Source: Myxococcales bacterium
GTDB lineage: Bacteria > Myxococcota > Myxococcia > Myxococcales > JAJYLH01
Length of the DNA: 64,000 nt
Assembly: GCA_021787845.1 (NCBI GenBank)
Contig: JAJYLH010000004.1
Span: forward strand, 62,001-126,000
Direction of reading: 5' to 3'
In this document: piece after piece, positions 2,104-31,364 of the stretch
Layout of the letters: every line of letters begins with the position of its first letter
Numbering within the stretch: position 1 is the first letter of the stretch
Notes under the pieces: model-generated
Databases searched by the model: none
The model's input: the letters and a program-made list of their open reading frames with translations, nothing else
What the model was told of the DNA's origin: nothing
Translations under genes and position numbers: made by a program

Positions 2104-3114
2104 CTAGAACGCCGCCCACTTCTTCAGCCGCTCGACGTTGCGGTCGGCATACGACTGGAGCTTGGCGAGGTCGCCCTCGCGGCCGGGCGTGACCCGGATC
2201 TCGCCGTCGACCAGCCGCGCCAGATGCTCGAAGCGCCGCTGCTTGACGAGGTACTGCTCGACGGGAGGCCTCTTGCCCTTCTCCGGCACGTGCTTGACCT
2301 CGCCCGGCTCGCCCGCGCGCTTCCTGAAGCAGGGGAAGAGGCCGGTCTGGCTGGCGAGCTTGCCCAGCTCCGCCGTCAGCCCCTCCTCGAACTTCCACCC
2401 GGCGATGCAGGGCGAGGGGACGAAGACCACCGCGGTGCCGTTCGAAGTGTTGATCGCCTCCTCGGCCACCTCGGCGAAGAACGGCGCGAACGCGGGCGAG
2501 CCCTGGGCGACGAAGGCCGCCCCCGCCGCGATGGCGAGGCCGACGTGGTCGATCGGGTCCTCGGGGAGCCCTCCGGGAGCGGTGGAGCTGTCCGCGAAAG
2601 GCAGCGCGGTGGGGCTGAACTGGAACCCGGTGTTCGCGAAGACCTCGTTCATCTGCACGAAGATGGCGATGCGCGCCCGCCGCTGAATCGTGTGCAAGAG
2701 GGAGCGCAGCCCGATGGCGAGAGCGCCGCCGTCCCCCGAGAGCGCGACCACGTTCGGGCTCGGCGCCTTCCACGCGCCCACGCCTTCCAGCACCGTCGCG
2801 ACGTCCCGCACCGCCTCGGCGATGGTCGGGGAGCTCTCGAAGACGTTGTGCATCACGCCGAGGCTCTTGCCGAAGAGCTCCGGCGACTGTGGGCCGCGGC
2901 CCCAGGAGATGAGGTTCGGATACATCAGCGTCGAGACTTCGCCGCAGAAGGTGCCGAGGGTGAGCACCGTCTTCTTGCCGTTGTCGGTCGCGCGCCCGAC
3001 CTCGTGGAAGGTCACCGCCTCCATGCAGCCGGGGCACAAGGCGTGTCCCTCGACGAACGCGTCCTCGCGCAGGGCGTGCTCTTTGAACGTCGGGAGCGGA
3101 CGGGCCATCGGCAA
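2104..3114 (-). CDS. 2-oxoacid:ferredoxin oxidoreductase beta subunit (PorB-like)
   Basis: 336 residues. This is the thiamine-diphosphate-binding subunit of a pyruvate/2-oxoacid:ferredoxin oxidoreductase, which oxidatively decarboxylates the oxoacid to acyl-CoA and reduces ferredoxin. Visible marks are CPGCMEA near the N-terminus (cluster cysteines), FCGEV and a late SPCIAGW cysteine, the ThDP motif SGDGGALAIGL, and NEVFANTGFQFSPTALPF, which matches the NExYxNTGxQxSxxTP signature of PorB. Third gene of a minus-strand operon, 12 bp behind porA. The substrate is most likely pyruvate but this cannot be proved from sequence alone. Confidence 0.9.
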   Translation of the reverse strand: MPMARPLPTFKEHALREDAFVEGHALCPGCMEAVTFHEVGRATDNGKKTVLTLGTFCGEVSTLMYPNLISWGRGPQSPELFGKSLGVMHNVFESSPTIAEAVRDVATVLEGVGAWKAPSPNVVALSGDGGALAIGLRSLLHTIQRRARIAIFVQMNEVFANTGFQFSPTALPFADSSTAPGGLPEDPIDHVGLAIAAGAAFVAQGSPAFAPFFAEVAEEAINTSNGTAVVFVPSPCIAGWKFEEGLTAELGKLASQTGLFPCFRKRAGEPGEVKHVPEKGKRPPVEQYLVKQRRFEHLARLVDGEIRVTPGREGDLAKLQSYADRNVERLKKWAAF

Positions 3115-8787: not shown

Positions 8788-10626
8788 CTACGCCCGGCTC
8801 CCTTCGTCCTCCGGCTCGTCGAGCGGCACGCGGCCTTCGAGCCGGGCGCGCTTGCGCTCGAGGTAACGGAAGATGGTGCGCGCGTCGACCCCGAGGTCGC
8901 GCGCGGTCTTGGTCCGGTTCTCGTGGTTTCGCCCGAGCACCTCGTCGATGTAGCGCTCCTTGAACTCTTCGATCGCGTTCACGAGCGGCTGAATCGGCGC
9001 CAGGCTCTCCGGCCTCAAGTCCAGGTCGGTGACGGTCACGAGCGGCCCGTCGGCGAGGACGATGGCCTTCTTCAGGCGGTTCTCCAACTCCCGGATGTTG
9101 CCCGGCCAGGCGTAGCGCATGAGGGCCTCGACCGCGTCCTTCGCGAACCCCTTGACGCTACTCGAGAGCTCTTTTGCGAAGCGGGAGAGCAGATGCCGGG
9201 CGATCACCTCGACGTCGTCGCCGCGATCGCGCAGCGGCGGCAGGTGCACGCCGACCACGTTCAGCCGGTAGTAGAGGTCCTCCCGGAAGCGGCCGGCCTT
9301 GAGCTCGTCCTCGAGCACCCGGTTGGTCGCCGCGACGATCCGGATGTCCACCGGCTCCGGCCGGCTGTCGCCGACCTTGGTGACGACCTTCTCTTGCAGC
9401 GCCCTGAGGAGCTTCACCTGGAGCCCGACCGGCAGCTCGCCGACCTCGTCGAGGAAGAGGGTCCCCCCGTTCGCCGCCTGGAACCGGCCGATGCGCGTCG
9501 CCACCGCGCCGGTGAACGCGCCGCGCAGGTGGCCGAACAGCTCGCTCTCCATCAGCTCCGCAGGGATCGCGCCGCAGTTGATGACCACGAACGGTCCGCC
9601 CTTGCGGGGGCTGCGGCGGTGCAGCTCCCGGGCGATGAGCTCCTTGCCGGTGCCCGTTTCGCCGGTGATGAGGACCGAGATGTCCGTCGGCGCGATTTTC
9701 TCCAGCTTGCGGTAGACCTCGCGCATCGCGTCGCAGGAGCCGATGATCTCGCCGAACCGCGCCTCCTCCGCCGCCTTCTTCAAGGCGCGGTTCTCCAGGG
9801 TCAGCTCGTTGAGGAGCTGGGCGTTGCGCACGAGGAGCGACGCCTGCGCCGCGTAGATGGTCAAGAGCGCCAGCGCCCGGTCGTCGAAGTGGTTCGCGAC
9901 CCGGTCGTTGCCGACGTAGAGGAGCCCGAACGCCGCGCCCTGGCGGTCGAGCAGCGGCACCGCGAGGACGCTGCACAGCTTCAGGTTGACGACGCTCTCC
10001 GAGCTGTTGAACTCCTGGTCGTTGAGCGCGTCGGAGACGATCACCGGCTTCTTCGTCGTCAGCGCCTTGCGCACGATGCTGTCGGAGAGCGTCTGCACCG
10101 CGCTCTCGACGTTGTGGCGCTCCAGGTGGCGGGCGACCCTGACGTGGAGCTGCCCGTCCTCCACCAGCACCAAGAACGCCTTGTCCGCGCTCGTCACCTT
10201 GATCGTGCCGTCGACCAGCGCTTCGAGGAGCTTCTCCAGGTCGCCCTGGGCGAGGAGCCGTTCCGAGAAGCGGTACAGCTCGCTCAGGGCTTCGAGCGCG
10301 TCGGGCTCGCGTTCTTTCGAGAGGTGCAAGGTCGCCCGCGCCGGCGGCGTCAGGTGGAAGCTCACTTCCGTCTGCCCGAGCCGGAAGCGGTCGCCGTCTT
10401 GGAGCTTGAGCCTGGTCAGGCGCTTGCCGTTCACGACCACCCCCGCGCCCTCCACCACCGACGCCGAAAAGAGGCCCTGGTCCCGCTCGATCGCCACCAC
10501 CCCTTCGGCGCTCTCGTCCGACAGCGCGACGTCCAGGTCCTCGCCGCGACCGAGCGAGGTGATCGCCTTGACCAGGGTCACCGTGCGCGGCGCCTCGCCG
10601 GGCGAACGGATGGTGAGCACGGGCAT
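8788..10626 (-). CDS. Sigma-54-dependent activator with FHA and GAF domains
   Basis: 612 residues. Domains in order: FHA-like (about 1-95), GAF (about 130-285), AAA+ sigma-54 interaction domain (about 295-530) and a Fis-type helix-turn-helix (about 565-605). Walker A GETGTGKEL, the loop GAFTGA that contacts sigma-54, and Walker B-like GGTLFLDEVGEL are intact, so it should remodel sigma-54 polymerase. The FHA is partly degenerate: the GR of LGRG and the N of VNGK remain, but the usual S-x-x-H is not evident. ATG is preceded by AAGGAG. Last gene of a block with a Ser/Thr kinase two genes upstream, which suggests the FHA reads kinase-made phosphothreonine. Myxobacteria use many such regulators in development. 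Confidence 0.9.
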   Translation of the reverse strand: MPVLTIRSPGEAPRTVTLVKAITSLGRGEDLDVALSDESAEGVVAIERDQGLFSASVVEGAGVVVNGKRLTRLKLQDGDRFRLGQTEVSFHLTPPARATLHLSKEREPDALEALSELYRFSERLLAQGDLEKLLEALVDGTIKVTSADKAFLVLVEDGQLHVRVARHLERHNVESAVQTLSDSIVRKALTTKKPVIVSDALNDQEFNSSESVVNLKLCSVLAVPLLDRQGAAFGLLYVGNDRVANHFDDRALALLTIYAAQASLLVRNAQLLNELTLENRALKKAAEEARFGEIIGSCDAMREVYRKLEKIAPTDISVLITGETGTGKELIARELHRRSPRKGGPFVVINCGAIPAELMESELFGHLRGAFTGAVATRIGRFQAANGGTLFLDEVGELPVGLQVKLLRALQEKVVTKVGDSRPEPVDIRIVAATNRVLEDELKAGRFREDLYYRLNVVGVHLPPLRDRGDDVEVIARHLLSRFAKELSSSVKGFAKDAVEALMRYAWPGNIRELENRLKKAIVLADGPLVTVTDLDLRPESLAPIQPLVNAIEEFKERYIDEVLGRNHENRTKTARDLGVDARTIFRYLERKRARLEGRVPLDEPEDEGSRA

Positions 10627-10642
10627 CGGTCGGGCTCCTTCT

Positions 10643-11809
10643 TCAGGGCTTCGCCTGCCCGGCAGTGGTATCGCCTACCGGGACCGCTTTCGGGTGCCGC
10701 GCGCCGGACGCGGCCGGCGGAGGGGCTTTCTTCTCGCCCTTCGCGCCGGCCTTGCCGTTCGCCACGGGAGGACGCTGGCCGGCAGCGGCCCCGCCCGCCG
10801 CCGACGCCGGCGAGGTCTGGGTCGACTCGACGCGCCCCGGCGCCGCGGGCGTCATCGGCCTCGCCTGGCCACCGGGTGGGCTGCTGGCCGCCCCCGGCAC
10901 CGACGGCCTTTGCGCGGGCGCGGGAGGGGCGGTCGCGGCGGGCACCGAGACCGGCCGCGGCAAGGGTCCCGCCGGCGCCGCCGAGGGCAGCTCGCTCTCG
11001 CTCAACACCCGGTCGGGCGCGAAGTCGACGTTCGCCTCGACCGCGCCCGCGAGCCAGAGCAGGTAGAACGCCCCCCCGCTCGCCCATTTGGCCGTGTCCA
11101 GCTTCTGGGCCAGCGCATAGTTCGGCGGCGAGAACCGGTGGGTCTGGCTCGAACGCAAGGCGTCGACGAGCAGGTACGAACCGATGGAGACCACCGCCGC
11201 CAACACCTCGGTCGCGGCGAAGGTCGCGCCGAGCTTCACGCTTCCGTTCTGGAACTGCCCGAGCCCGAAGGGCATCCACGCGAGCAGGACCGACGAGTGC
11301 GCGACCGTCTCTTCCAGGACCCGCGGCTTCGTGAGCGCCGTTCGCCGCTGCTCCTCGGCCAGAGCCTGCATCTTCGCCTCCTCGGCCTCGGCCTTGAGCC
11401 GCTCGTGCCGGAGCTTGCGAATCGGCGCCAGGTACTTCTCGTTGCGCCGGCGGACCTGGTCGAAGAACGCCACCGCGTCCGGCGGGACGAAGAACGGGTC
11501 GAGCTGGTAGTCCGGGTCCTGCTTCAACAGCTCGAACATCGCGTTCTCGGCGTCCGCCGGCCGGTGGAGGTAGAAGTACGCGAGCCCCAGCATCCGGTAC
11601 GCTTGGACCCGCTGGCTCTCCGAGAGGTCCTGCTCGGCGGGAACGCTCTTGAGTAACGACACCGTCTTGGGGAAGTCGCCGTACTCGAAGGCATCGTGCG
11701 CCTCTTTGAGCACCTCGGGAGCGGTGTCGGCCCGCGCGACCGCTCCCGCGAGGCACACGACGGCGCCGGCGGCGGTGAGCGACAACGCTTGGCGCACCAA
11801 CGCGCGCAT
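10643..11809 (-). CDS. Secreted TPR-like protein with Pro/Ala-rich tail
   Basis: 388 residues. N-terminal signal peptide ending near AGAVARA. Residues about 25-110 look like TPR helices (AHDAFEYGDFPKTVSLL, YRMLGLAYFYLHRPADAENAMFELL). A charged helix follows (KLRHERLKAEAEEAKMQALAEEQRR), then two hydrophobic stretches around 170-215 and 250, then a long low-complexity tail of Pro, Ala and Gly from about 270. Sits between the Ser/Thr kinase (39-bp gap) and the sigma-54 activator (16-bp gap) on the same strand, so probably one operon. Likely an envelope partner of the kinase system; function unknown. Confidence 0.78.
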   Translation of the reverse strand: MRALVRQALSLTAAGAVVCLAGAVARADTAPEVLKEAHDAFEYGDFPKTVSLLKSVPAEQDLSESQRVQAYRMLGLAYFYLHRPADAENAMFELLKQDPDYQLDPFFVPPDAVAFFDQVRRRNEKYLAPIRKLRHERLKAEAEEAKMQALAEEQRRTALTKPRVLEETVAHSSVLLAWMPFGLGQFQNGSVKLGATFAATEVLAAVVSIGSYLLVDALRSSQTHRFSPPNYALAQKLDTAKWASGGAFYLLWLAGAVEANVDFAPDRVLSESELPSAAPAGPLPRPVSVPAATAPPAPAQRPSVPGAASSPPGGQARPMTPAAPGRVESTQTSPASAAGGAAAGQRPPVANGKAGAKGEKKAPPPAASGARHPKAVPVGDTTAGQAKP

Positions 11810-11848
11810 CCGGACGGCGGTACCCCAAAGGCCCCGAAAGCGCTCTCG

Positions 11849-13750
11849 CTAGCCCTGGGGCTCCATCGTCACGTCGAGCGGCAGCTTCTGCCCGGCGCGC
11901 ACGACGACCGTCCGCACCCAATCCTTGAACCCGGTCGCGCCCAGCCGTACGTGCACCTCGCGAGAATAGCGCCATTGCCCGTCGGCGTCCTCACCCATGT
12001 GCACGCGCAACCGCCCGCCCTTGAGCTCGCTCAACAGGTGCGAGACCTGGTCGGCGAGAACGCCGACGGTGCTCGAGTCTAAAGGCCCGTGGACCTTCAA
12101 GACGAGGACCCCGTCCAACGGCACGAGCTTCTCCCGGAAGTCGCGCTTCTCGCCGGGGCCGAGGGTCGCGTCGAGCGCCATCGGCTGGCAGCCCTCGTGC
12201 GACAGCTCGATGCGATGGAGGCCCGGCGGCAGGTCGCCGTCCCAGGCGCGGGTCTCCGCCACCTCGCGCCCGTCGATCTCGATCCGCGCGAACGGCAGGA
12301 CCTCGATCGACAGATGCGCCTTCTTCACCGGCAGCGGCGCCCGGACGCTGGCCACGGCGAGCGGATGGAGCCGCGGCGCGACCGGCGAGGGCGCCGGGCG
12401 CGGATGCCAGCGCGGATGGGACCGCGGCGCCAACTTCTCCCTCGGCTGGATTGCCGCGAGAGGAGGCTTGGCAGGGGTCTTGGCGATCGGCGGCGCTTTC
12501 GGGGTCCGGGCGGGGCGCTTCGCCGCGAGCGAGCGGGGCACGGGCCGCGGCCCCGGCGTTGGATGGGAGCGCAGCCGCTCGGCGTGCCGGACGACCGGAA
12601 ACGCCGCCAGCAGGACCAGCGCCGCCGTGGCGAGCATCCACAGGCGCCGGCGCCAGCGCGCGCGGCTCTTGAGCTGGTCCAGCGCCTGTCGGGCCTGGCC
12701 CGCCTCGGGGGTGCCCGGCGCGATGGCGATGATTCGCGCGAAGCTCTGGAGCGCTTTCGCCGGCCGGTGGTCCCGGGCGGCCGCCTCTCCTTCCCGCTGG
12801 AGCCGGCCGATGATGAGCTGCTTGGTCTCCCGCGCGACCTTCTCCGGCTCGGCGAGAAACGAGGTCACGAGCTCCTCGGGCCGTTCGAAACCGCTCTCGA
12901 GGAGCGTCGCGCGCAAGAGCTCCTGCAGTTCGGTCGCCGACCGCACCCGCTCCTCGCGCCGGGCGAGGGTCTGGTCGATCACGTGCGCGAGCGAGTCGGA
13001 CACCGCCGGCTCGAGCTCGCGCGGGTCGTGGTAGTCGCCGTCGAGGATCCGCTTCAACAGCGCCGCCGGGCTCGGGCCTTCGAAGGGGAGCTGACCGGTC
13101 GAAAGCCAATAGAGAATCGTGCCGAGCGAGAACAGGTCGCTGCGCTCGTCCGCCTCCTCGCCGTCGATGATCTCCGGCGCCATGTGCGCGGGCGAGCCGA
13201 CGAGCGACCCGGTGACCGTCATCCGCTCGTCGCGGTCGAGAATCTGCGCGATGCCGAAGTCCATCAGCTTCAGCGCCGGCGCTGGCCCGTCCTCCCGGAT
13301 CATCACGTTCTCGGGCTTCAGGTCGCGGTGGACGATGCCCTGCTGGTGCGCGTGGGCGAGGGCGGCGGCGAGGACGTACGTGGCGGCGGCCGCGATTTCC
13401 GGCGGGTCGAACGGGTGCGCCTCGGCGAACGCCCGCAGGGTCCGCCCGCGGATCAGCTCGGTGACCAGGAACGCTTCCGGGCTCTCTTCGCCGGAGTAGT
13501 CGTAGATCTCGAGGATGTTCGGGTGGTGCAGCCGGGCGACCGCTTTCGCTTCCCGCGCGAGCCGGCGGCGGTGCTCGGCCCGGGCCGCGAGGTGCGGGTG
13601 GAGCAGCTTCACCGCGACGTCGCGCTCGAGCGACTGGTCGACGCCCCGGTAGACGACGGCCATTCCGCCGTGCCCGACCTCTTCGAGGAGCCGGTAGCGC
13701 TCTCGGACCCTTTCGGTCGCCGGCAACTTCTTCCACCTCGCGGGCGCCAC
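11849..13750 (-). CDS. Transmembrane Ser/Thr protein kinase with PEGA domain
   Basis: 633 residues from a GTG at 13748-13750. Kinase domain in about the first 290 residues: Gly loop VGHGGMAVVYRG, VAIK-type lysine in DVAVKLL, catalytic HRDLKPENVM, DFG in LMDFGIAQ, and an activation loop with GSPAHMAPEI (usually Y in place of H). A juxtamembrane helical stretch with a TPR-like unit precedes one membrane helix (LWMLATAALVLLAAFPVV). The outside part has a Pro/Arg-rich linker and a PEGA domain (RIEIDGREVAE, LPPGLHRIELSHEG). Such kinases sense envelope state and phosphorylate cytoplasmic FHA proteins. The downstream FHA activator is a candidate target. Confidence 0.9.
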   Translation of the reverse strand: MAPARWKKLPATERVRERYRLLEEVGHGGMAVVYRGVDQSLERDVAVKLLHPHLAARAEHRRRLAREAKAVARLHHPNILEIYDYSGEESPEAFLVTELIRGRTLRAFAEAHPFDPPEIAAAATYVLAAALAHAHQQGIVHRDLKPENVMIREDGPAPALKLMDFGIAQILDRDERMTVTGSLVGSPAHMAPEIIDGEEADERSDLFSLGTILYWLSTGQLPFEGPSPAALLKRILDGDYHDPRELEPAVSDSLAHVIDQTLARREERVRSATELQELLRATLLESGFERPEELVTSFLAEPEKVARETKQLIIGRLQREGEAAARDHRPAKALQSFARIIAIAPGTPEAGQARQALDQLKSRARWRRRLWMLATAALVLLAAFPVVRHAERLRSHPTPGPRPVPRSLAAKRPARTPKAPPIAKTPAKPPLAAIQPREKLAPRSHPRWHPRPAPSPVAPRLHPLAVASVRAPLPVKKAHLSIEVLPFARIEIDGREVAETRAWDGDLPPGLHRIELSHEGCQPMALDATLGPGEKRDFREKLVPLDGVLVLKVHGPLDSSTVGVLADQVSHLLSELKGGRLRVHMGEDADGQWRYSREVHVRLGATGFKDWVRTVVVRAGQKLPLDVTMEPQG

Positions 13751-17718: not shown

Positions 17719-18149
17719 GCGCGGGCGGTAGACCTCGACGGGAACGTCGGGCGGGTAACGGGGGCTGAGGGCGGCGTCATCCATCGCGGACACCAGTGCC
17801 GCGACGCGCGGCGGCGTTGAAAGTCGCCTGGTGGAGGCGGCGTCGGCCCGATGCAAAGGTGCGTCGGGGTGGATGGAGGTCGCGTCGGCCTTTCGCCATC
17901 AGGCGGAGCGCCACGATGGCCGGGCGCGTCCCGCGCGGCTGGCGACGCCGACCGCGGGAGTGGGTGGTCCTCGTCGGGGCGCGCGGAGCCAAGCGCCGTG
18001 TCGGCCCGCCGGCCACCGCCAGCCGCCGCGCGCCCTCCGACCGTGGAGCCTGCCTGAGGCTTGACAGGATGGCCGCCTCGTGCTTTGCTGCAAACGTCAT
18101 TTCCGAAGGGTGTGCGAACGGCCGGCGACGGCCGACATCGGGGAGCACG
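17719..18149. other. 431-bp divergent intergenic region
   Basis: Separates the response regulator (minus) from the giant lipoprotein (plus). Short open frames here are out of context and lack conserved sequence. The only recognisable signal is a candidate promoter at 18061-18089. No repeats of the families seen elsewhere were found. Confidence 0.6.
18061..18089 (+). promoter_or_regulatory. Candidate sigma-70-type promoter
   Basis: A perfect TTGACA at 18061-18066, a 17-bp spacer and TTTGCT at 18084-18089 as a weak -10. Transcription would start near 18096, giving a leader of about 55 bases before the giant lipoprotein start, which has GGGAG just upstream. TTGACA is rare outside coding sequence in this GC-rich window, but the -10 matches only three of six positions. 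Confidence 0.4.
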
Positions 18150-21100
18150 ATGAAGCATTCTCGACGATTCTCGTGGTCGCTCGCGATCGTCCTTCTCGCG
18201 GTGGGAGCGGTCTTTTCCCAACTCGGATGCAGCCCAGCTCCGGGTGTCGGCGCCGATGGCGGGCAATCGGATGGCGGCGTCTGCCAGCCGTCCACTTGCA
18301 AGACGCTCGGATTCGACTGCGGCACCGCCTCGAACGGGTGCGGCGGGACCCTGTCCTGCGGAAGCTGCTCCGGGACGGACACCTGCGGCGGTGCCGGGAA
18401 GCCCAACATCTGCGGCCCGGGCACCTGTACGCCCAAGACCTGTCACGACCTGGGATTCGACTGCGGCACGGCCTCGAACGGGTGCGGTGGGACCCTGAGC
18501 TGCGGAAGCTGCTCCGGGACGGACACCTGCGGCGGTGCCGGTCAGCCCAACGTCTGCGGCACGCCGTGCACCCCCAAGAGCTGCCACGACCTGGGGTTCG
18601 ACTGCGGCACCGCCTCGAACGGGTGCGGCGGGACCCTGTCCTGCGGAAGCTGCTCTGGGACGGACACCTGCGGCGGTGCTGGGCAGCCCAACGTCTGCGG
18701 CAGCGCATACACCTGGACGAGCATGCCGAGCGGGACGACCGACGACCTCCGCGGTATCTGGGGGAGTGGCCCGAACGACTTGTGGGCGGTGGGCGACAAG
18801 GACAACGGGTCGAGCGTCCCGGCCACGGTGAACGTCTTCCACTCCGATGGCATTCGTTGGTCCGAGGTCGCGGACAAGACCAACGACGGAGAGCTGTACG
18901 CCGTCTGGGGAAGCGGACCCGACGACGTGTGGGCGGTCGGCAACGCCATCGAGCGCTGGGACGGGACTACGTGGACGATGATCGACAGCGGCAACTTGGG
19001 TTACCCGAGCCTCAATGGAGTCTGGGGCAGCGGGCCGAACGACGTCTGGGCAGCGGGCGCGGACGACAACGGCCAGGGCGAGATCGCCCATTGGAACGGA
19101 AACGCCTGGTCGGTTTCCGCGACGAGCTCCGGTTGGAGCAACCTTGCCGCGGTTTGGGGAAGCGGGCCTGACGACGCGTACGCGGTCGGTAACGACACCT
19201 CGGGCGGAGCGCTCTTCTTGCGTTGGAATGGCACGAGTTGGTCTCCCGAGCCGGTGCCTACATCGCCTTTTCCGGGCTTGCCTGGAGACATTCCGGACGC
19301 TCTCTGGGGTTCGGGGCCGGACGACATCTGGGGGGTTGGAAGCGGTCTCGATCACTGGGACGGGAGCCGATGGGCGCATCGCGGCGGCCTCGTCGGCGGC
19401 TCGTTTCCGCTCTACGGCGTCTGGGGCAGCGGAGCGACGGACATCTGGGCCGTGGGGGACTCCGGGACGATCGGCCACTATGACGGGACGGCCTGGGTGA
19501 AAGCGACGAGCGGCACCACCGAAACGCTCTACGGCGTTTGGGGCACGGGGCCGGGACACGCCTGGGTGGTCGGCGCGGGTGGAACGATCCTCATGCTCGT
19601 CTCGTCGATCGACGAACCGCCGACGGTGGCTCTCACGACTCCGGCCAGTGGCGCGACGGTCTCGGGCACGGTCGAGCTATCCGCGACCGCGAGCGACGAC
19701 ATCGGGATCGCGAGCGTCCAGTTCACCGCCAGCGGTCAGACCGTGGCCACGGACGAGAGCGCTCCGTACCAGATGGGTTGGAACACCTGCACGGTGCCCG
19801 ATGGCACGGTGACGATCGCGGCGACGGCGACCGAGGCGGGCAAGGGCCAGACGGCGACGGACAGCCGCACGGTGACGGTGGACAACGCCGCTGTCGCCCC
19901 CTACCTCGCCGGCACGCCGGGCGATGGGAAGGCGACGCTCTCCTGGACCACCGAGTGCGGTGCCGCTTCCCAGGCGACCTTCCAGATCTATTGGGCGACC
20001 TCGCCCGGGGTCACGACCGCCAGCCAGGTCGTGAGCGCCGCGAGCAGTCCTTACGTCCAATCCAGCCTGACGAACGGGCAGACCTACTACTACCGGGTGG
20101 CGATGGTGAGCGGCTCGGGCGTGGGCGCGCTGTCCAACGAGGTAGCGGTCACGCCCGGGACTTTCGACGCGACCACCTGGTCTTCCAGCACCCAAGGTTC
20201 AGAAGACCTCCACGGCGTCTGGGGAGCGGGGCCGAGCGACATCTGGACGGTGGGGAACGCGGGCACCGTCCTCCACTATGACGGGCAAGCCTGGACTACC
20301 CAGGCGAGCAGCACTAGCGCCGACCTACGTGGGGTCTGGGGCAGCGGACCGGCCGATGTCTGGGCGGTGGGCCTCGTCGGTAGCACCTGCTCCTCGGGCC
20401 AGCAATGCCACGACATCACGGGCCAGGGTAATTACGAGTGCGTCGACCCGAGCACGAGCAATGGGGTCCCCGCGAACGCGCCGACCTGCACCCAGGCGCA
20501 GGGTTGGGCGTGCCCCAGCGGCGAGTCGTGTTTCGGCCCCAAGGGTGCGACCAGCGGCTTCTGTTTCGCGGCTTGCACCATCTCGGCCTCGGCGACCGTG
20601 TTGCACTGGGATGGGAGCGCCTGGTCCAGCGTGAGCGGCGGCACCCCGTCCGACCTGCATGCGGTCTGGGGTAGCGGCCCGAACGACGTCTGGGCGGTCG
20701 GTGGAACCTACGATGCGAACTTCAATGACCTGACGGGAACCATCGTCCACTGGGACGGCAGCACGTGGCAGAGCGTGGACAGCGGGACGAACAACGTGCT
20801 CAACGGGGTCTGGGGAACCGGTCCGAACGACGTCTGGGCGGTGGGCGATTCCGCGACCATCCTCCACTGGGATGGAACCAAGTGGTCCGGCTCGACCGGC
20901 GGGGACTTCCTGACTGGAGTGTGGGGAAGCGGCTCCAAGGACGTGTGGACGGTGGGCGCCGTCGGTCTGGCCATACATTGGGACGGAACCGCATGGTCGA
21001 AGGTGCCAAGCTGGACCAGCAACGAACTCCTTGGTGTTTGGGGAAGTGGCCCCAGCGATGTGTGGGCAGTGGGCGACAGCGGAACCCTCCTGCGCTGGGA

Positions 21101-24100
21101 CGGACAGCAATGGTCCCCCCAAGACAGCGCCACTCAGGCCCCGTTGTTCGGGGTCTGGGGTGCCGGGCTCGGTGACGTGTGGGCAGTGGGCGCGGGGGGA
21201 ACGATCATCCACAGCACGGTCGCGCCGGACGCGCCGCCGCAGGTCGCGATCACTGCGCCGACAGTGGGAACCGCGGTCTCGGGGACCGTCGAGATCACTG
21301 CGAACGCCAGCGATGACGTGGGCGTGACGAAGGTCGAGATCGGCGCTGGCGACCAGACCCTGGCGACCTTTGGCTCCGCGCCGTACGTCGTGCAGTGGGA
21401 TACCTGCAAGGTCGCGGACGGGCCGGTCACGCTCACGGCGACCGCGACCGACACCGTTGGGCAGACCGGCACGAATTCAGTCCAGGTCGTGGTTGACAAC
21501 TCGGCGCCGCCAGTTCTGACGGGCACGGCCGGCGAGGGGACCGCGACGCTGACGTGGACGACGGGCTCCTGCGGCACCCCGCCGAGCTCGTTCAATCTCT
21601 ACTGGTCGACCGCTACTGGCGTGACGACTTCGAGCACGCTCGTCGCAGGAGTGACGAACCCGTCTCTCCAAACTGGCCTCACCGACGGTCATGCCTACTA
21701 CTACCGGGTCGCCGCGGTCGTCAACGGAGTCGTGGGTCCGCTCTCGAACGAGGTGTCGGTCACGCCCCAGCCGCTGATGCGCCCGTCCTGGGTCTCGGTG
21801 GCGAGTGGAACGACATCGTGGCTCAATGGCGTTTGGGGTAGCGGACCGAGCGATCTTTGGGCGGTCGGCGGCGGCTACAGCCAGGGCGTTTTGACGGGAA
21901 CTATCCTCCATGGCGACGACAGCGGCTGGTCTCCGGCGACGATCCCGGCGACCACGGCGCAGCTCCACGGCGTTTGGGGAAGCGGGCCCAACGACGTGTG
22001 GGTCGTGGGCGCCGCGGGCGATGACTCGTCGGGCGTGATTCTCCACTGGAACGGGAGTGCCTGGTCTCAGGACACGAGTGAAACCGCCTCTGCCTTGTTC
22101 GGGATCTGGGGCAGCGGCGCGAACGATGTCTACGCGGTCGGCCGAGACGCCGGGGATCACGGGGTCATCCTCCACTGGAATGGCCAAGCCTGGTCGAGCG
22201 CAACCTTGCCTTCGGGCACGGTAGATCTGGCGAGCGTGTGGGGCAGCGGGCCGAACGATGTCTGGGCGGTCGGGCGCTCGGCGCTGCACTGGGACGGTGG
22301 CGCGTGGTCCGACGAGACCAGCAGCTTCGCCGGGGGACTGGGCGCGGGCGGATGCGCGGCAATCTGGGGAAGCCAGTCGGACGACGTCTATCTCGCGGAT
22401 TCCTCCTCGTTTCACTGGAATGGCAGCAAGTGGTCGATGATTCCGGCCTTGGACGCCAGCAATCCTTGGGGCCTGGCCGCGTGTGGCGTGTGGGGTAGTG
22501 GGACCTCCGACGTCTGGGTCGTCGGCGCCCAGGGCATGACCGCCCACTTGGACGGCGGGTACTTCTCCGCCGTGGCGAGCGGAACCACAAACAACCTGAA
22601 CGGCGTCTGGGGAAGCGGGCCGGGTAACGTCTGGGTGGTCGGTGACGAAGGGACCATCCTTCACAAAGTCACGGTTGCCGACCTGCCGCCGACGGTAACG
22701 ATCACGGCTCCCCCGTCGAGCGCCACGGTCTCTGGAGCGGTCACGCTCTCCGCGACCGCGAGCGATGATGTGAGGGTGGCGAGCGTTCGGTTCACCGCCG
22801 CGGGCTCTGGCGTCGCGACGCTGACGGACTCGCCCTACACGACAACCTGGGACACCTGCGGGCTCCCCGACGGTCCTGCGACCATCGTCGCCGAGGCTAC
22901 TGACGACGCCGGCCAGACCGCCACCGATTCGCGCACGGTGACCATCGCCAACGCGGCGGTGCCGCCGGTGTTGAGCGGCGGCGCGGGAGATGCGAAGGCG
23001 AGCTTGGAGTGGACGACCTGCGGGCCGAAACCGGACTCGTTCGACCTCTACTGGGCGAGCGCGCCGGGCGTGACGACTTCGAGCACCGTCGTCGCGAGCG
23101 CCACGAGCCCGTACACGATGACGGGACTCGCTGACGGTCAGTCCTATTACTTCCGGGTGGCGGCCGTGCGCGGCGGGGTGGTCGGCGTGCTGTCGAACGA
23201 GGTGGAAGTCACGCCTTCGAAGCCACTGTGCGGCGCCGGCGCGTGGTGCTGGTCGAACCCGCGGCCGGAAGGGAACAAATTACGGGCAATCGCGGGAAGC
23301 GCGGCAAACGATGTCTGGGCGGTCGGCGATGCGGGAACCATCGTGCACTGGAATGGGACGGCTTGGGCGAACGTCATCAGCGGAACCACGAACGACCTCT
23401 ACAGCGTCTCGGCCAGTAGTCCGAACAACGCTTGGGCGGTTGGTGCTGGGGGGACGATCGACCACTGGAACGGAATGACCTGGTCGGTCACCACGATCGA
23501 CACCTATGGATCCACGCTGGTTGGCGTCTGGAGTAGCGACTCGAACCACGTGTGGGCCATCGTTGGGCGCGGTGACCTCTACTTCTGGAATGGTCAGTCC
23601 TGGTCCGACCCGGACACCGTTAGCACCAGTGGCCTCAATTTCTTGAGCGGGACCAGCATCTGGGGAAGCGGCCCGAACGACATCTGGGCCGCGGACACGA
23701 ACGAGGGGTTCACCCACTTCGACGGCACGACTTGGTCCCGAATTGGTTCGAACAAGCTCGCGTATGCAGGCGGGAGCGGTCCCTCCGACGTCTGGACAGT
23801 TGGTTCCGGCGGCGCCGTCGCCCATTGGAACGGCACTGCCTGGTCCAGCTCGACCAGCGGGACCACCAACGATCTCGCTGGCATTTGGGCGAGCAGCACG
23901 AGCGACGCCTGGGCGGTCGGCGCAGGCGGCACGATGGTCCACTGGGACGGCAGCGCCTGGGCGGGCGCCGCGGGCGGAACGACGGCGGACCTGCTCGGCG
24001 TCTGGGGCAGCGGCTCTGGCGATGTCTGGGCGGTCGGCACCGCGGGAACCATCGTCCACTGGAACGGGACTTCGTGGACGGGCGCTTCCGGCGGCGCGAG

Positions 24101-27100
24101 CAACAATCTGAACGCGGTCTGGGGCAGCGGCTCCGGCGATGCGTGGGCGGTCGGCGACGCGGGCTCGATGCTGCATTGGAACGGGGACGCCTGGCTCGTG
24201 GTGCCGAGAATGACGTCAGCGAACCTCGAGGCCGTTTCCGGTTCCGGGCCGAGCGACGTCTGGGCGGTCGGGGGGACGAAAGACTCAGCGGGGAATGACA
24301 TCGGGGGAACCGCTCTGCACTGGGATGGTCATGCCTGGTCGAACGTGTCCACGGGCGCCTCGGGGGTCCTCAATGGAGTTTGGGACAGCGGTCTTGGCGA
24401 TGTCTGGGCGGTCGGTGACTATGGAACCGTTGTTCACTGGAACGGCGGTGTCTGGAGTCGGGTCGCTGCGCTCGGCGATCCTCTCTATGGAATCTGGGCG
24501 AGCGGTTCGAACGCCCTATGGGCCGTGGGCGGCGTTCCACAAGAGTGGGGGGAGAGTGGGTCATCCGACATCCTTCAGGGGAACGGCGCATTCTGGTCAT
24601 CGATGACGAGCCCGAGTTCGATGAGCCTGAAAGCGGTTCGTGGCGACGGGCCGGACGACGTGTGGGCCGTCGGCGGCTACGACTACAACGTTCCCACAGT
24701 CGGCGACCAAGAGGGCCAGGCGCTTCTCCATTGGAACGGTAGCGCGTGGTCGAGCGCTTCCACGGGAAGCTCGATGCCGTTGTACGGGGTCTGGAGCAGC
24801 GCGGCGGACGACGCCTGGGCGGTCGGTGGTTCGGGCACGATGCTCCACTACGACGGCCAGAGCTGGTCGGCGGTCTCGAGCGGCGCGACCGCGGACCTCC
24901 GCGGCATCTGGGGCTCCAGTTCGAAAGATGTGTGGGTGGTCGGCAAGAACGGGACCATCCTGCACTGGGATGGCAGCGGCTTTGCCCTGCCAGGACCGCA
25001 TGTCAAGCTGACATCGCCCACGGCCGGGTCTACGGTCTACGGTCAGAAGATCCAACTGTCGGCCGACACCAGCGCGGACACCGCGGACGGCTTGAGCATC
25101 GCCAAGGTCCAGTTCCAGGTCGGAGGCAGCACCGTCGCGACCATGACGACCGCCCCCTTCGTGACCACCTGGAACGGGTGCCAAACCAGTGATGGTCCGA
25201 TCACGGTGACAGTGACCGTCACCGACACCTTGGGCCGCACCGCGACGGACACTGCGCAGGTGACGCTGGCGAACAGTAACGCGCCGGCTATGCTTTCTGG
25301 CACTCCTGGAGACACGACGGCCACCCTGACTTGGACCGACGTCTGCGGCGGCCCGGTCGGCGATTTCACGGGCGACGTGTACTGGTCCACCAGTCCGGGC
25401 GTGACCACCTCCAGCTCGGTACTGTCGAACGTTTCCGATCCCTACATGCAATCGGGGCTCACGAACGGCCAGACGTACTACTACCGAGTCCAGTCCTTCA
25501 CCAACGGAACGCCTTTCGGACAAATGTCCAACGAGGTCGCGGTGACGCCGGAAGGCTGGTACGCCCCGTGGTCCACCGCGGTGACGGCGACCACCACCGG
25601 CGCGCCAGACGCCGAGGCGGTCTGGGGAAGCGGGCCGAACGACGTGTGGATCGGCGGCACCCGCGGCACCCTCCTGCATTGGGATGGCAGCGCGTGGACG
25701 AATGTACCCAGCGGCACGACCAACACCCTCCGCGCCATCTGGGGAAGCGGTCCCAGCGACGTGTGGGCGGTCGGAGACTCCGGAACCGCATTGCACTGGG
25801 ATGGCGCTGCCTGGTCGGCTGCGGCGGTCCCGACGGTCGCCGGAGCGGACGGCCCCTCGGACTTGAGCTCGGTCTGGGTGGACGGCCCGACCGACGCCTG
25901 GGCCGTGGGCATTGCCTCGCAGTACCCCTACGGCGTTCCGGCACTTCTGCACTGGGATGGACAATCTTGGACGAACCAGGCGCCCCCGGCAGGGCTGGCC
26001 GCTTTGTCCGAGGCATCCTTGAAGTCGATTTGGGGAAGCGGTCCGAACGACGTCTGGGTGGTCGCTACCTTCAGCGGCGGAAACGATTCGGACGACATCT
26101 TTCACTACGACGGGACCTCCTGGTCAACCGCGGCCTCGATTCCCGCGAACTACGGTCTGGTCAGCTTATGGGGGAGCGGAGCCGACGACGTCTGGGCGAC
26201 CGGAGATGGCATTACGCTCCACTGGGACGGCACTTCCTGGACGGCAGTAACCTTGCCCTCGCCGCTGACCTACGTGACCTTCGATGCGATTTCATGTAGC
26301 GGGGCGAGCGATGTGTGGATGGTCGGGCGGTCGACGGGTTACGGGAACGTCGCGCACTTCGACGGCAGTACCTGGTCGATGATCGCGAGTGGCTCGACCG
26401 CCAACCTCAACGCCGTCTGGGCGACTGGCCCCGCCGAGGCGTGGGCTGTCGGCGATTCGGGCACCATCGTCCATTGGAACGGCACTGCTTGGTCGACGAT
26501 CGCCTGGCCGATTCCCGCCTGGACGGCCGGCGGTCTCAACGCCGTCTGGGGCAGCGGACCTGGCGACGCCTGGGCGGTGGGCGACGGCGGCGGCATCGCA
26601 CATCTGAGCGGCACCACCTGGTCGCCCGTGATCAGTGGAACCACCCAGAAGCTACGCGGTGTCTGGGGCAACGACTCGGCCGACGTCTGGGCCGTCGGCG
26701 ACAACGGAACGATCCTTCGATGGGACGGCCAGGCATGGTCCGCCGTGACCGGTGGAACGACCAACTACCTCTATGGAATCTGGGGCAACGCGCCCACCGA
26801 CGTCTGGGCCGTGGGCGGCGATCCGGGCGCCAACGGCGCGAACTGGACGGGAACGATTCTGCACTTCGACGGTAACTCCTGGTCGGCGGCCAGCATCCCC
26901 GCCACCCCAGGGCATTTCAACGCCGCCTGGGGTAGCGGTGCGGACGATGTCTGGGCAGTGGGTAGCGGCGGAGCCGTCCTCCACTGGAACGGAAGCTCCT
27001 GGTCCAGCATCGAGAGTGGGACCACCAACGAGCTCTACGGCATCTGGGTGAGCGGCCCGAGCGATGTGTGGGTCGCGGCGAACACCTCCGCTCTCCACTG

Positions 27101-27383
27101 GGATGGCCAATCGTGGTCGCCAGCGACGATTCCCGCGGGCCTCTCCGGGATCAGGGCGGTCTGGGGCAGCGGCGCGAACGACGTTTGGACGATGAGCAAC
27201 AGCTTCGTCTTGCACTGGGATGGCCGCGCCTGGATCGAAGCCTCCTCGGTGGGCGCCAGCGTCATCGTCAACGGCATCTGGGGTAGCGGACCGAACGACG
27301 TCTGGGGCGTCGGCGTGGCCTACGGGGGCGATTACGGAAGCACCCCTTACGAGACGATTCTGCACTTCCCGCCCGGGCCGTGA
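18150..27383 (+). CDS. Giant multi-propeller predicted surface lipoprotein
   Basis: 3077 residues from ATG 18150, preceded by GGGAG. N-terminal signal with a possible lipid-anchor cysteine at C27 (FSQLGC, an imperfect lipobox). Three Cys-rich repeats (about 46-184; GFDCGTASNGCGG, SCGSCSGTDTCGG) follow. The rest is made of about 40-residue blades of the form GVWGSGPNDVWAVG...TILHWDG..W, grouped as 7 (188-486), 7 (674-1022), 7 (1211-1508), 14 (1694-2281) and 14 (2469-3077). Each gap holds one Ig-like plus one FN3-like domain (GQTYYYRVA, LSNEVAVTP). The second block has a Cys-rich insert between blade strands. Blocks begin with a lone W-strand and end with a half blade, as in velcro-closed propellers. 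No enzymatic motif; adhesion or ligand display is inferred. The open frame upstream to 17796 lacks a signal. Confidence 0.85.
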   Translation: MKHSRRFSWSLAIVLLAVGAVFSQLGCSPAPGVGADGGQSDGGVCQPSTCKTLGFDCGTASNGCGGTLSCGSCSGTDTCGGAGKPNICGPGTCTPKTCHDLGFDCGTASNGCGGTLSCGSCSGTDTCGGAGQPNVCGTPCTPKSCHDLGFDCGTASNGCGGTLSCGSCSGTDTCGGAGQPNVCGSAYTWTSMPSGTTDDLRGIWGSGPNDLWAVGDKDNGSSVPATVNVFHSDGIRWSEVADKTNDGELYAVWGSGPDDVWAVGNAIERWDGTTWTMIDSGNLGYPSLNGVWGSGPNDVWAAGADDNGQGEIAHWNGNAWSVSATSSGWSNLAAVWGSGPDDAYAVGNDTSGGALFLRWNGTSWSPEPVPTSPFPGLPGDIPDALWGSGPDDIWGVGSGLDHWDGSRWAHRGGLVGGSFPLYGVWGSGATDIWAVGDSGTIGHYDGTAWVKATSGTTETLYGVWGTGPGHAWVVGAGGTILMLVSSIDEPPTVALTTPASGATVSGTVELSATASDDIGIASVQFTASGQTVATDESAPYQMGWNTCTVPDGTVTIAATATEAGKGQTATDSRTVTVDNAAVAPYLAGTPGDGKATLSWTTECGAASQATFQIYWATSPGVTTASQVVSAASSPYVQSSLTNGQTYYYRVAMVSGSGVGALSNEVAVTPGTFDATTWSSSTQGSEDLHGVWGAGPSDIWTVGNAGTVLHYDGQAWTTQASSTSADLRGVWGSGPADVWAVGLVGSTCSSGQQCHDITGQGNYECVDPSTSNGVPANAPTCTQAQGWACPSGESCFGPKGATSGFCFAACTISASATVLHWDGSAWSSVSGGTPSDLHAVWGSGPNDVWAVGGTYDANFNDLTGTIVHWDGSTWQSVDSGTNNVLNGVWGTGPNDVWAVGDSATILHWDGTKWSGSTGGDFLTGVWGSGSKDVWTVGAVGLAIHWDGTAWSKVPSWTSNELLGVWGSGPSDVWAVGDSGTLLRWDGQQWSPQDSATQAPLFGVWGAGLGDVWAVGAGGTIIHSTVAPDAPPQVAITAPTVGTAVSGTVEITANASDDVGVTKVEIGAGDQTLATFGSAPYVVQWDTCKVADGPVTLTATATDTVGQTGTNSVQVVVDNSAPPVLTGTAGEGTATLTWTTGSCGTPPSSFNLYWSTATGVTTSSTLVAGVTNPSLQTGLTDGHAYYYRVAAVVNGVVGPLSNEVSVTPQPLMRPSWVSVASGTTSWLNGVWGSGPSDLWAVGGGYSQGVLTGTILHGDDSGWSPATIPATTAQLHGVWGSGPNDVWVVGAAGDDSSGVILHWNGSAWSQDTSETASALFGIWGSGANDVYAVGRDAGDHGVILHWNGQAWSSATLPSGTVDLASVWGSGPNDVWAVGRSALHWDGGAWSDETSSFAGGLGAGGCAAIWGSQSDDVYLADSSSFHWNGSKWSMIPALDASNPWGLAACGVWGSGTSDVWVVGAQGMTAHLDGGYFSAVASGTTNNLNGVWGSGPGNVWVVGDEGTILHKVTVADLPPTVTITAPPSSATVSGAVTLSATASDDVRVASVRFTAAGSGVATLTDSPYTTTWDTCGLPDGPATIVAEATDDAGQTATDSRTVTIANAAVPPVLSGGAGDAKASLEWTTCGPKPDSFDLYWASAPGVTTSSTVVASATSPYTMTGLADGQSYYFRVAAVRGGVVGVLSNEVEVTPSKPLCGAGAWCWSNPRPEGNKLRAIAGSAANDVWAVGDAGTIVHWNGTAWANVISGTTNDLYSVSASSPNNAWAVGAGGTIDHWNGMTWSVTTIDTYGSTLVGVWSSDSNHVWAIVGRGDLYFWNGQSWSDPDTVSTSGLNFLSGTSIWGSGPNDIWAADTNEGFTHFDGTTWSRIGSNKLAYAGGSGPSDVWTVGSGGAVAHWNGTAWSSSTSGTTNDLAGIWASSTSDAWAVGAGGTMVHWDGSAWAGAAGGTTADLLGVWGSGSGDVWAVGTAGTIVHWNGTSWTGASGGASNNLNAVWGSGSGDAWAVGDAGSMLHWNGDAWLVVPRMTSANLEAVSGSGPSDVWAVGGTKDSAGNDIGGTALHWDGHAWSNVSTGASGVLNGVWDSGLGDVWAVGDYGTVVHWNGGVWSRVAALGDPLYGIWASGSNALWAVGGVPQEWGESGSSDILQGNGAFWSSMTSPSSMSLKAVRGDGPDDVWAVGGYDYNVPTVGDQEGQALLHWNGSAWSSASTGSSMPLYGVWSSAADDAWAVGGSGTMLHYDGQSWSAVSSGATADLRGIWGSSSKDVWVVGKNGTILHWDGSGFALPGPHVKLTSPTAGSTVYGQKIQLSADTSADTADGLSIAKVQFQVGGSTVATMTTAPFVTTWNGCQTSDGPITVTVTVTDTLGRTATDTAQVTLANSNAPAMLSGTPGDTTATLTWTDVCGGPVGDFTGDVYWSTSPGVTTSSSVLSNVSDPYMQSGLTNGQTYYYRVQSFTNGTPFGQMSNEVAVTPEGWYAPWSTAVTATTTGAPDAEAVWGSGPNDVWIGGTRGTLLHWDGSAWTNVPSGTTNTLRAIWGSGPSDVWAVGDSGTALHWDGAAWSAAAVPTVAGADGPSDLSSVWVDGPTDAWAVGIASQYPYGVPALLHWDGQSWTNQAPPAGLAALSEASLKSIWGSGPNDVWVVATFSGGNDSDDIFHYDGTSWSTAASIPANYGLVSLWGSGADDVWATGDGITLHWDGTSWTAVTLPSPLTYVTFDAISCSGASDVWMVGRSTGYGNVAHFDGSTWSMIASGSTANLNAVWATGPAEAWAVGDSGTIVHWNGTAWSTIAWPIPAWTAGGLNAVWGSGPGDAWAVGDGGGIAHLSGTTWSPVISGTTQKLRGVWGNDSADVWAVGDNGTILRWDGQAWSAVTGGTTNYLYGIWGNAPTDVWAVGGDPGANGANWTGTILHFDGNSWSAASIPATPGHFNAAWGSGADDVWAVGSGGAVLHWNGSSWSSIESGTTNELYGIWVSGPSDVWVAANTSALHWDGQSWSPATIPAGLSGIRAVWGSGANDVWTMSNSFVLHWDGRAWIEASSVGASVIVNGIWGSGPNDVWGVGVAYGGDYGSTPYETILHFPPGP
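18286..18702 (+). repeat. Three tandem Cys-rich coding repeats
   Basis: Three near-identical copies of about 130-140 bp at roughly 18286-18418, 18430-18553 and 18571-18702, encoding C-P-K-x-C...LGFDCGTASNGCGGTLSC. The DNA identity between copies is high enough to suggest recent duplication or gene conversion. Similar Cys-rich units follow the signal peptide of many myxobacterial surface proteins. Confidence 0.8.
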
Positions 27384-27479: not shown

Positions 27480-28295
27480 ATGCGTTATGCTCCCGCCGTG
27501 ACGCACTCCGACGACGAGCTGCTCGCCCTCGCCCGCACCGGTGACGCCCGAGCGACGACCGAGCTGTTGACCCGCCACGAGAAGTCCATCTACCGCTTCG
27601 GCCTTCGGATGTGCGGCAACGAGGAGGACGCGCGCGAGGTGCTGCAGGACACGCTCCTCGCTGCGTTCCGGCACCTGCCGGGCTTTCGGGGCGAGGCTGC
27701 GCTGTCGACCTGGCTCTACCAGCTCGCGCGCAGCTTCTGCTTGAAGTCGCGGCGGCTGAAGTCGGGCGAACCGGCGACCTTCGTGGATGTCGACTCGGCG
27801 GCGGCGGTCAACGTCCCGAGCGAGGACCACGGCCCCGACGCGCGGGCGCACGCGCGCGAAATCGCGCAGGCGCTCGGGCGCGCGCTCCGGGAGCTGCCGG
27901 CCACCTCGCGCGAGGCGGTGATTCTGCGCGACGTCGAGGGGCTCTCGGTCGAGGAGGCGGCGAAGGTCGCGGGGCTCGAGGTGCCGGCGTTCAAGAGCCG
28001 CCTGCACCGGGCGCGGCTCGTCCTGCGCAAGAAGCTCGCGATGCTCGGCGACGACGAAGTGACCCTCTGCCAGCAGCTCGCGCGGGAGCTGGTCGAGGAC
28101 AACCTCCTGGACATCGACCAGTCGGCCTGCGAGCGCATCGAGCGCCACTTCGCGAGCTGCCCCAAGTGCGGCGACGCGATGGACCACCTGCGCCAGACGG
28201 TGTCGCTCTGCCGGGCGCTGCCGCATGGCGACGCGGTGCCGCCGCACGTCCAGGAGGCCGTCCGCCGCGCGCTCTTGGCCATCGCCGCGCCCTAG
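27480..28295 (+). CDS. ECF-type RNA polymerase sigma factor with zinc-finger tail
   Basis: 271 residues, longer than a standard ECF factor (about 190). Region 2: DARATTELLTRHEKSIYRFGLRMCG, DAREVLQDTLLAAFRHL, FRGEAALSTWLYQLARSF. Region 4: LRELPATSREAVILRDVEGLSVEEAA and AFKSRLHRARLVLRKKL. After region 4 comes a tail of about 75 residues with H-x3-C-x2-C (ERHFASCPKCGDAM), the pattern of zinc-binding anti-sigma domains. The regulator may therefore carry its own inhibitory or redox-sensing module. ATG 27480 is used; a GTG at 27498 is an alternative. No separate anti-sigma gene is next to it. Confidence 0.85.
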   Translation: MRYAPAVTHSDDELLALARTGDARATTELLTRHEKSIYRFGLRMCGNEEDAREVLQDTLLAAFRHLPGFRGEAALSTWLYQLARSFCLKSRRLKSGEPATFVDVDSAAAVNVPSEDHGPDARAHAREIAQALGRALRELPATSREAVILRDVEGLSVEEAAKVAGLEVPAFKSRLHRARLVLRKKLAMLGDDEVTLCQQLARELVEDNLLDIDQSACERIERHFASCPKCGDAMDHLRQTVSLCRALPHGDAVPPHVQEAVRRALLAIAAP

Positions 28296-30819: not shown

Positions 30820-30950
30820 CGGCACCTCCCGAATTCGCGCCAGTCCTAGCGCATCGCGGGCGCGGGCGCTCGCCCGTCGTCGCCGGCGCACCGCCGGCCT
30901 TGCGCCCGTCATCGCCCGTCGTCACCTTTGCGGTCGTTGGAGGATCCGCC

Positions 30951-31364
30951 GTGCCGCAGACGCCGCCCGCCCATTTCATGGTGCCGCGCAAGCTGACCGA
31001 CTCCGAGCTCGCGCAGGCGATTCGCCTCGACCTCGAGGCCGAGCTCGACGCGATGAACCTCTATCAATCGCACATCGACGCGACGGACCACGCGCTCGCG
31101 AAGAAGGTCCTCGCCTACGTGCGCGACGACGAGCGCGAGCACGCGGCGCTGTTCAACGCGCTCCTGCGCGAGCTCGACCCGCAGCTCGCCGAGGAAGAGG
31201 CGGCGGCACCGGAGAAGCTAAAGCTCATCGAGAGCGGTGCCTCTGAGCAGGAAGTCGCCGCGCTGACCGAAAGCGGCGAAGGGGAGCCGGCCGGCGACGA
31301 GGTCCGCAGCCACCGCTTCGTTCCGCGCGAGCTGACGGTCGGCTCCTTGCGCGGCGGAAGCTGA
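30951..31364 (+). CDS. Encapsulated-ferritin-like protein with encapsulin cargo peptide
   Basis: 137 residues from GTG 30951, with TTGGAGGA eight bases upstream. The ferritin-like helices hold E31 and Y38 (EAELDAMNLYQ) and E61/H64 (DDEREHAALF), which fit the metal-site positions of encapsulated ferritins (EncFtn, residues E32, Y39, E62, H65 in the Rhodospirillum protein as I recall). After a Glu/Ala-rich linker of about 45 residues, the tail is ELTVGSLRGGS, matching the encapsulin cargo-loading motif LTVGSLRR known from Myxococcus. EncFtn forms ferroxidase rings that deliver iron into the shell. No encapsulin shell gene is in this window; the next gene encodes a glycosidase. Confidence 0.87.
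   Translation: MPQTPPAHFMVPRKLTDSELAQAIRLDLEAELDAMNLYQSHIDATDHALAKKVLAYVRDDEREHAALFNALLRELDPQLAEEEAAAPEKLKLIESGASEQEVAALTESGEGEPAGDEVRSHRFVPRELTVGSLRGGS

Follow-up and report, generated by a model that had tools for sequence, protein, structure and literature searches.

The closest described relatives of the protein considered here are seven-bladed propellers. Ycf48 (PSII_BNR, PF14870; structures 2xbg and 5ojp) carries the full Asp-box. It is a lipid-anchored assembly factor, and it is lipidated despite a non-canonical -3 lipobox residue, a different one from that found below (PMC8038367). The GH74 enzymes consist of two seven-bladed propellers, and in the 'type 3' arrangement one uninterrupted stretch makes two propellers (PMC2716378). 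Highly repetitive propellers have been surveyed by Pereira and Lupas (2022, PMC9218822). Run lengths peak at 7 and 14 in the WD40-like ones, as many as 47 blades of high similarity follow one another, and the intermediate counts form a continuum. The window analysed here is a stretch of 64,000 nucleotides from a Myxococcales bacterium, and it holds a giant gene whose product carries 49 blades.

Layout of the gene and its repeats

The reading frame at 18150-27383 on the forward strand translates into 3077 residues and ends in TGA at 27381-27383. A Shine-Dalgarno-like GGGGAG lies a few nucleotides 5' of the ATG. The features are listed here.

18061..18089, forward: possible promoter, weak, from direct sequence reading (TTGACA, 17 nt, TTTGCT as a weak -10; 60 nt before the ATG)
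18150..27383, forward: giant protein of 3077 aa with seven predicted propellers (ORF translation)
18150..18227, forward: signal peptide with atypical lipobox SQLG/C, Cys 27 as +1 (sequence)
18282..18707, forward: Cys-rich stalk, three modules of ~47 aa of the form CxPxTCxxxGxxCG...NGCG, residues 45-186
18708..19616, forward: block 1, 7 blades, predicted propeller 1 (motif scan, AlphaFold2, Foldseek)
19617..20153, forward: linker 1, Big_7 and fn3 (Pfam, linker comparison)
20154..21233, forward: block 2, 7 blades, putative propeller 2 (motif scan)
20382..20579, forward: Cys-rich insertion with 8 Cys in the B-C loop of block 2 blade 2
21234..21770, forward: linker 2, Big_7 and fn3 (Pfam, linker comparison)
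21771..22685, forward: block 3, 7 blades, putative propeller 3 (motif scan)
22686..23219, forward: linker 3, Big_7 and fn3 (Pfam, linker comparison)
23220..24995, forward: block 4, 14 blades, predicted propellers 4 and 5, with the lone strand WCWSNPRPEGN at its start
24996..25550, forward: linker 4, Big_7 and fn3, the most diverged (Pfam, linker comparison)
25551..27380, forward: block 5, 14 blades, putative propellers 6 and 7, the C-terminal end of the protein (motif scan)

A consensus scan for promoters gave none. The order is thus signal peptide, a Gly/Asp-rich spacer, three Cys-rich modules, and 7-7-7-14-14 blades with Ig-FN3 linkers between the blocks, followed directly by the stop. The protein is acidic (pI 4.1), has a mass of 312 kDa and is 6.3% Trp. 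Assembly collapse is unlikely, since the frame is intact over 9.2 kb and the blades are only moderately alike in DNA (at most about 79% to the reference copy of the repeat family).

The A-B strand motif was counted with a position-specific scan of the whole protein, using 50 shuffled proteins as the control. There are exactly 49 motifs, each scoring 25-56 bits, with no further hits in the giant. The shuffled proteins gave 2.4 hits above 3 bits each and a maximum of 21 bits. The initial annotation had counted 49 blades as 7/7/7/14/14, and the scan matches it exactly: residues 203-463 (7), 690-1002 (7), 1228-1486 (7), 1714-2253 (14) and 2491-3043 (14). The common blade unit has 39 residues and four strands, A-B-C-D. 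It runs from the A strand (LxGVWGSG) through the A-B turn, the B strand (DVWAVG), the B-C loop, the C strand (GTILHW) and the turn DGxxW to the D strand and the D-A loop. The framework strands hardly vary, and neither do the A-B and C-D turns, which have a fixed length in the giant's blades. The B-C loop (-1 to +72) and the D-A loop (5 to 15) vary in both length and sequence. Mean blade-blade identity is about 0.50 over 30 core positions (0.64 in block 2 alone), so these are not recent copies. The GAWCWSNPRPEGN at the start of block 4 is a signature that marks the stand-alone 14-blade relatives. The 66-residue Cys-rich insertion in block 2 blade 2 has no counterpart among the giant's other blades. 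The blades match no family in the Pfam scan, and the NCBIfam scan of the giant gave no match.

Pfam does recognise Big_7 and fn3 in all four linkers, where Ig-FN3 linkers had been proposed. Linkers 2-4 are 51-60% identical to linker 1 and each has two conserved Cys. The Cys-rich stalk proposed for the N-terminus is likewise there, as the three modules at residues 45-186, and the module recurs in the 14-blade lipoproteins L084, L092, L094, L095 and L096 and in the 21-blade L081. The proposed anchoring by an N-terminal cysteine stands only in part. Many homologues have the canonical L-[AS]-[GA]-C lipobox, but the giant's own is Q-L-G-C, which departs from L-[AST]-[GA]-C in having Gln at -3. A lipid anchor is plausible, and we treat it as putative. 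In Myxococcus xanthus a Lys at +2 marks the inner membrane and an Ala at +7 the matrix (PMC3222651). Cys 27 of the giant has neither the +2 Lys nor the +7 Ala, and by this rule (PMC3222651) the default guess for its location would be the outer membrane.

Several neighbours of the giant may be noted. An ECF sigma factor (27480-28295, forward) lies ~100 nt downstream, and at its C-terminus a zinc-binding anti-sigma domain seems to be fused (CERIERHFASCPKCGDAM). A small EncFtn-like (encapsulated ferritin) protein is at 30900-31364 on the forward strand. Three genes in a row lie upstream on the reverse strand (8788-13750). They encode a GAF-sigma54 activator whose N-terminus is FHA-like, a TPR-like protein that is secreted, and a Ser/Thr kinase carrying a PEGA-like domain. 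Inspection around the giant, L003, L006, L012, L140 and L146 (with a Pfam scan of the giant's neighbours) found no recurrent gene partner.

Predicted ring closure

All five blocks start with a lone D strand and end after strands A-B-C. This is read from the sequence, and the strand lists of two AlphaFold2 models agree. The models cover block 1 (residues 184-490, from the 22-row alignment A2) and block 4 (1695-2290, from the 29-row alignment A1). The initial annotation was right that each block opens with a lone strand, which is the outer D strand, but the closing piece is not the half blade it described. It is A-B-C, three of the four strands. A lone strand at one end and an incomplete blade at the other, present in all five blocks, is the layout of velcro closure. 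The lone D strand that begins a run would pair with the A-B-C strands that finish it.

The block 1 model (pLDDT 89.9, pTM 0.90) has a lone strand at 4-8 and three strands in its last blade, and it is a single closed ring. Its best PDB match by Foldseek is Ycf48 (2xbg, TM 0.73). The initial annotation had called for structure prediction of each block separately; in the two blocks modelled, its velcro-closed seven-bladed rings are borne out as predicted structures, with the same ends in every block. The block 4 model (pLDDT 87.0, pTM 0.76) has whole-length PDB matches to 8i7o_P1 (TM 0.72), 8otz_f (0.70), AIP1 1nr0 (0.64) and GH74 xyloglucanases (~0.63). The first two are axonemal doublet proteins that we take to be of the CFAP52 type, and CFAP52 is a double seven-bladed propeller. 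The deposited title of 1nr0 reads 'Two Seven-Bladed Beta-Propeller Domains'. These matches agree with the idea that the 14-blade blocks are two propellers joined without a linker, seven rings in all. The 14 blades of block 4 would be 2x7, with the 7/7 split resting on the fold matches.

It is worth considering whether a 14-blade run instead folds as one large ring or as an open superhelix. Blades 7 and 8 have no linker between them, and many stand-alone proteins have 14 blades as their unit. However, the full length of the block 4 model fits two-ring proteins (TM 0.64-0.72), a 7-blade block is predicted to make one ring, and the 21 blades of L081 and the 7+14 of L016 fit a quantum of 7 rather than 14. 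We consider either form very improbable. Under the two-ring reading, each internal D strand would be able to close the next ring of a 14-blade run. Since any internal D strand can open the next ring, a run of 7n blades would need no linker to make n rings.

The ends of homologous runs were compared too. Trp stands at the expected lone-D-strand position in 66 of 77 runs, against 6 in a control window, and 31 of 75 proteins end no more than 12 residues past the last A-B motif. Two paralogues at L019 (ORFs at 5383 and 8636) begin mid-blade and end on a lone A strand (NAVWGPR, NHAIWGP). This suggests seven blades with a velcro closure on another strand.

Homologues and their blade counts

A scan of genome contigs gave 79 loci, mainly in Myxococcota and other former Deltaproteobacteria, with some in Chloroflexi, Actinobacteria, Verrucomicrobia, Planctomycetes, Acidobacteria and archaeal MAGs. 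Matches occur in 39 of 60 related genomes (same order, other families), and several genomes have many diverged paralogues each. Many homologues are predicted lipoproteins with propellers at the C-terminus. The common 14-blade class starts C..DGWCW.NPLPQGN, an opening similar to that of block 4. Stand-alone Myxococcota lipoproteins with 7, 14 or 21 blades (L081, L084, L097, L140, L016 and others) have the same blades as the giant, and some share its Cys-rich module or a Big_7/fn3 stalk. They have one or two propeller blocks, whereas the giant has five. Among 195 genomes in the phylum, only one besides the giant's own shares a linker and the following block at length (L111/L140, with many Big_7, one fn3 and 14 blades). 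L016 has 7 blades, then EGF-like modules, then 14 blades. The genomes searched in the order and the phylum do not conserve the giant's plan. Its own genome has no second locus, as all 16 matches fall within the giant's ORF (one extends past its stop). A phage search found no match to the giant, and a plasmid search gave one weak match, to a Nonomuraea record. A cluster at L012 (978-20428) is made up of three long genes for lipoprotein-like proteins bearing 14-blade arrays, interrupted by two genes that are Ser/Thr-kinase-like by sequence.

Blade counts in 78 complete cluster representatives were taken as automated chain counts. These gave 7 blades in 25, 14 in 25, 21 in one, 6 in 13, 13 in eight and other counts in six; none had 10, 11 or 12. 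The binomial p against 1 in 7 is 1e-24, which is overstated because the propellers all belong to one family and so are not independent. In the giant and L016 the chain counts ran across linkers and merged blocks; these two were set by eye. The near misses were also resolved by eye, with the hypothesis known: a degenerate fourteenth blade is visible in L010, L028, L085, L086, L104, L106 and L107 (counted as 13), a seventh blade is visible in most runs counted as 6, and the run counted as 23 proved to be 7 and 14 blades merged across a linker. L024, which has 9 blades and lacks an intact N-terminus, and L033, with 7 or 8 blades, were set aside as undecidable, as were L004, L039 (first ORF) and L057, whose frames are apparently broken. 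The only clear exception is L002 (ORF at 3593, 552 aa), which has 13 clean blades and a 14-class opening. It could be 6+7 or a short-read collapse. The initial annotation had staked its claim on homologue counts being multiples of seven, and the result goes in its favour: they are almost always 7, 14 or 21, mostly in Myxococcota, with L002 as the clean exception. Ring closure seems to dictate copy number.

This matters because, without selection through folding, blade amplification would lead to arbitrary copy numbers. Close orthologues keep blade position (0.82-0.91 vs 0.34), so the arrays are stable over short times. Among 171 pairs of divergent 14-blade proteins the same-position register was the best of 14 in only 16 (12 expected), and blades are more alike within a protein than between proteins in 168 of the pairs (mean 0.46 vs 0.40). 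The simplest reading is that arrays were amplified repeatedly and independently, with selection for 7n, though gene conversion within the protein is an alternative to independent amplification. Divergent arrays have no positional ancestry in common, yet they come in 7, 14 and 21, and this makes the family a natural experiment on whether ring closure is selected. In the giant, one chain takes the 7n rule as far as 49 blades. We also considered whether 14 blades arose by doubling of a 7-blade unit; this was rejected, as there is no lag-7 similarity signal.

Likely role and place among known propellers

The B-C and D-A loops of a propeller share one face. Since these are the loops that vary in the giant, each ring has one variable face and would present it for binding. 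Variable faces on an exported protein with a stalk are in keeping with multivalent binding at the surface, and the target may be matrix, prey, kin or polymer. We argue that the giant is an exported, probably lipid-anchored surface protein with seven propellers on Ig/FN3 linkers above a Cys-rich stalk, and most likely a multivalent binder. The argument builds on the observed repeat layout, counts and homologues and on the predicted ring closure; from these we infer adhesion or recognition as the role. A search for a ligand-binding residue pattern found none, and the genes next to the giant (response regulator, ECF sigma factor, kinase) offer no hint of function.

The rings could also be an architectural spacer, a polymer-like stalk that stiffens a surface fibre, where copy number sets the length and there is no specific ligand. 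Seven similar domains on Ig/FN3 linkers do recall stalk designs, and the blades belong to no catalytic family in Pfam or NCBIfam. However, most relatives carry their propellers as a terminal head on a separate stalk, and L140 has Ig repeats below a single 14-blade head. A fixed framework with variable loops on one face also suggests recognition. We think a spacer unlikely.

The nearest solved relative, Ycf48, raises another scenario, where the propellers serve as a scaffold for envelope assembly or protein interaction rather than as an outward-facing receptor. Ycf48 is just such a lipid-anchored factor (PMC8038367). However, a size of ~312 kDa combined with Ig/FN3 linkers and Cys-rich modules is what exposed proteins typically show. 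The many diverged paralogues in several genomes argue against one housekeeping partner, and the giant's plan is not kept across the order or phylum genomes searched. We consider the scaffold less probable still than the spacer. The multivalent binder remains our preferred reading. More tentatively, and with well under even chances, the family may be one of surface propellers that rebuild their arrays from single blades without blade ancestry, closure forcing an exact 7n. The giant would be the extreme case, a receptor of a myxobacterial lineage that uses seven variable binding discs for multivalent recognition. The giant points to a large modular class of Myxococcota surface proteins outside Pfam and NCBIfam coverage.

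How do the blades relate to known families? Profile A1, built on the 14-blade blocks, finds Ycf48 in the PDB over one ring length (hmmsearch, 5ojp, E 1.1e-14). Pfam on blocks 4 and 1 themselves gives 0 families, PF14870 included, and PF14870 matches only 2 of the 29 aligned members in A1 and 1 of the 22 in A2. Using the Asp-box definitions of PMC2716378, the full box [S/T]-x-D-x-G-x-[T/S]-W between C and D strands has 0 sites in 3077 aa. The short-box spacing D/N-x-x-x-W/F/Y is nearly universal in the giant's C-D hairpins (D/N in 44 of 45, the aromatic at +4 in 45 of 45). Short-Asp-box propellers have Ser/Thr two residues before the Asp, but here it is found in 0 of 45 hairpins, where His/Arg takes its place in 43, and in 1 of 221 in homologues. 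Short-box propellers also have the box in one or two blades, while the giant has the spacing in nearly every blade. The blades are thus a Ycf48-related, Asp-box-like subtype and, by the strict motif, not a member.

Thus Ycf48 resembles the giant in its seven-bladed fold, with significant profile and fold matches, and in an atypical -3 lipobox residue on a lipoprotein (PMC8038367), which the giant is presumed to be. It differs in being a single propeller with photosystem II as its partner. The Asp-box and short-Asp-box propellers, GH74 included, share the hairpin spacing and the making of two rings from one run, and the giant has no Pfam-level match to a glycosidase family. AIP1 and the CFAP52-type proteins match block 4 over its whole length as 14 blades in two rings, but they are eukaryotic intracellular WD40 proteins at 10-12% identity in the fold alignments.

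The highly repetitive propellers (PMC9218822) share with the giant's family run lengths that peak at 7 and 14, in the WD40-like ones, and arrays that arose independently by amplification of single blades. Those sets have blade identity above 60%, against about 50% in the giant, which places it outside that class, and their intermediate counts are continuous where this family has nearly none. The parts of that paper drawn on here describe no seven-ring lipoprotein. Searches of the literature on myxobacterial propellers or lipoproteins turned up no title or abstract that describes the giant's family. The initial annotation nevertheless went too far in stating that no described family has this plan. 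The blades are related to Ycf48, stand-alone lipoproteins with 7 or 14 blades are common in Myxococcota, and repetitive propellers with peaks at 7 and 14 are published (PMC9218822). What is new, compared with these systems, is a bacterial lipoprotein-type chain with seven predicted rings, and a family nearly without intermediate counts despite low blade identity.
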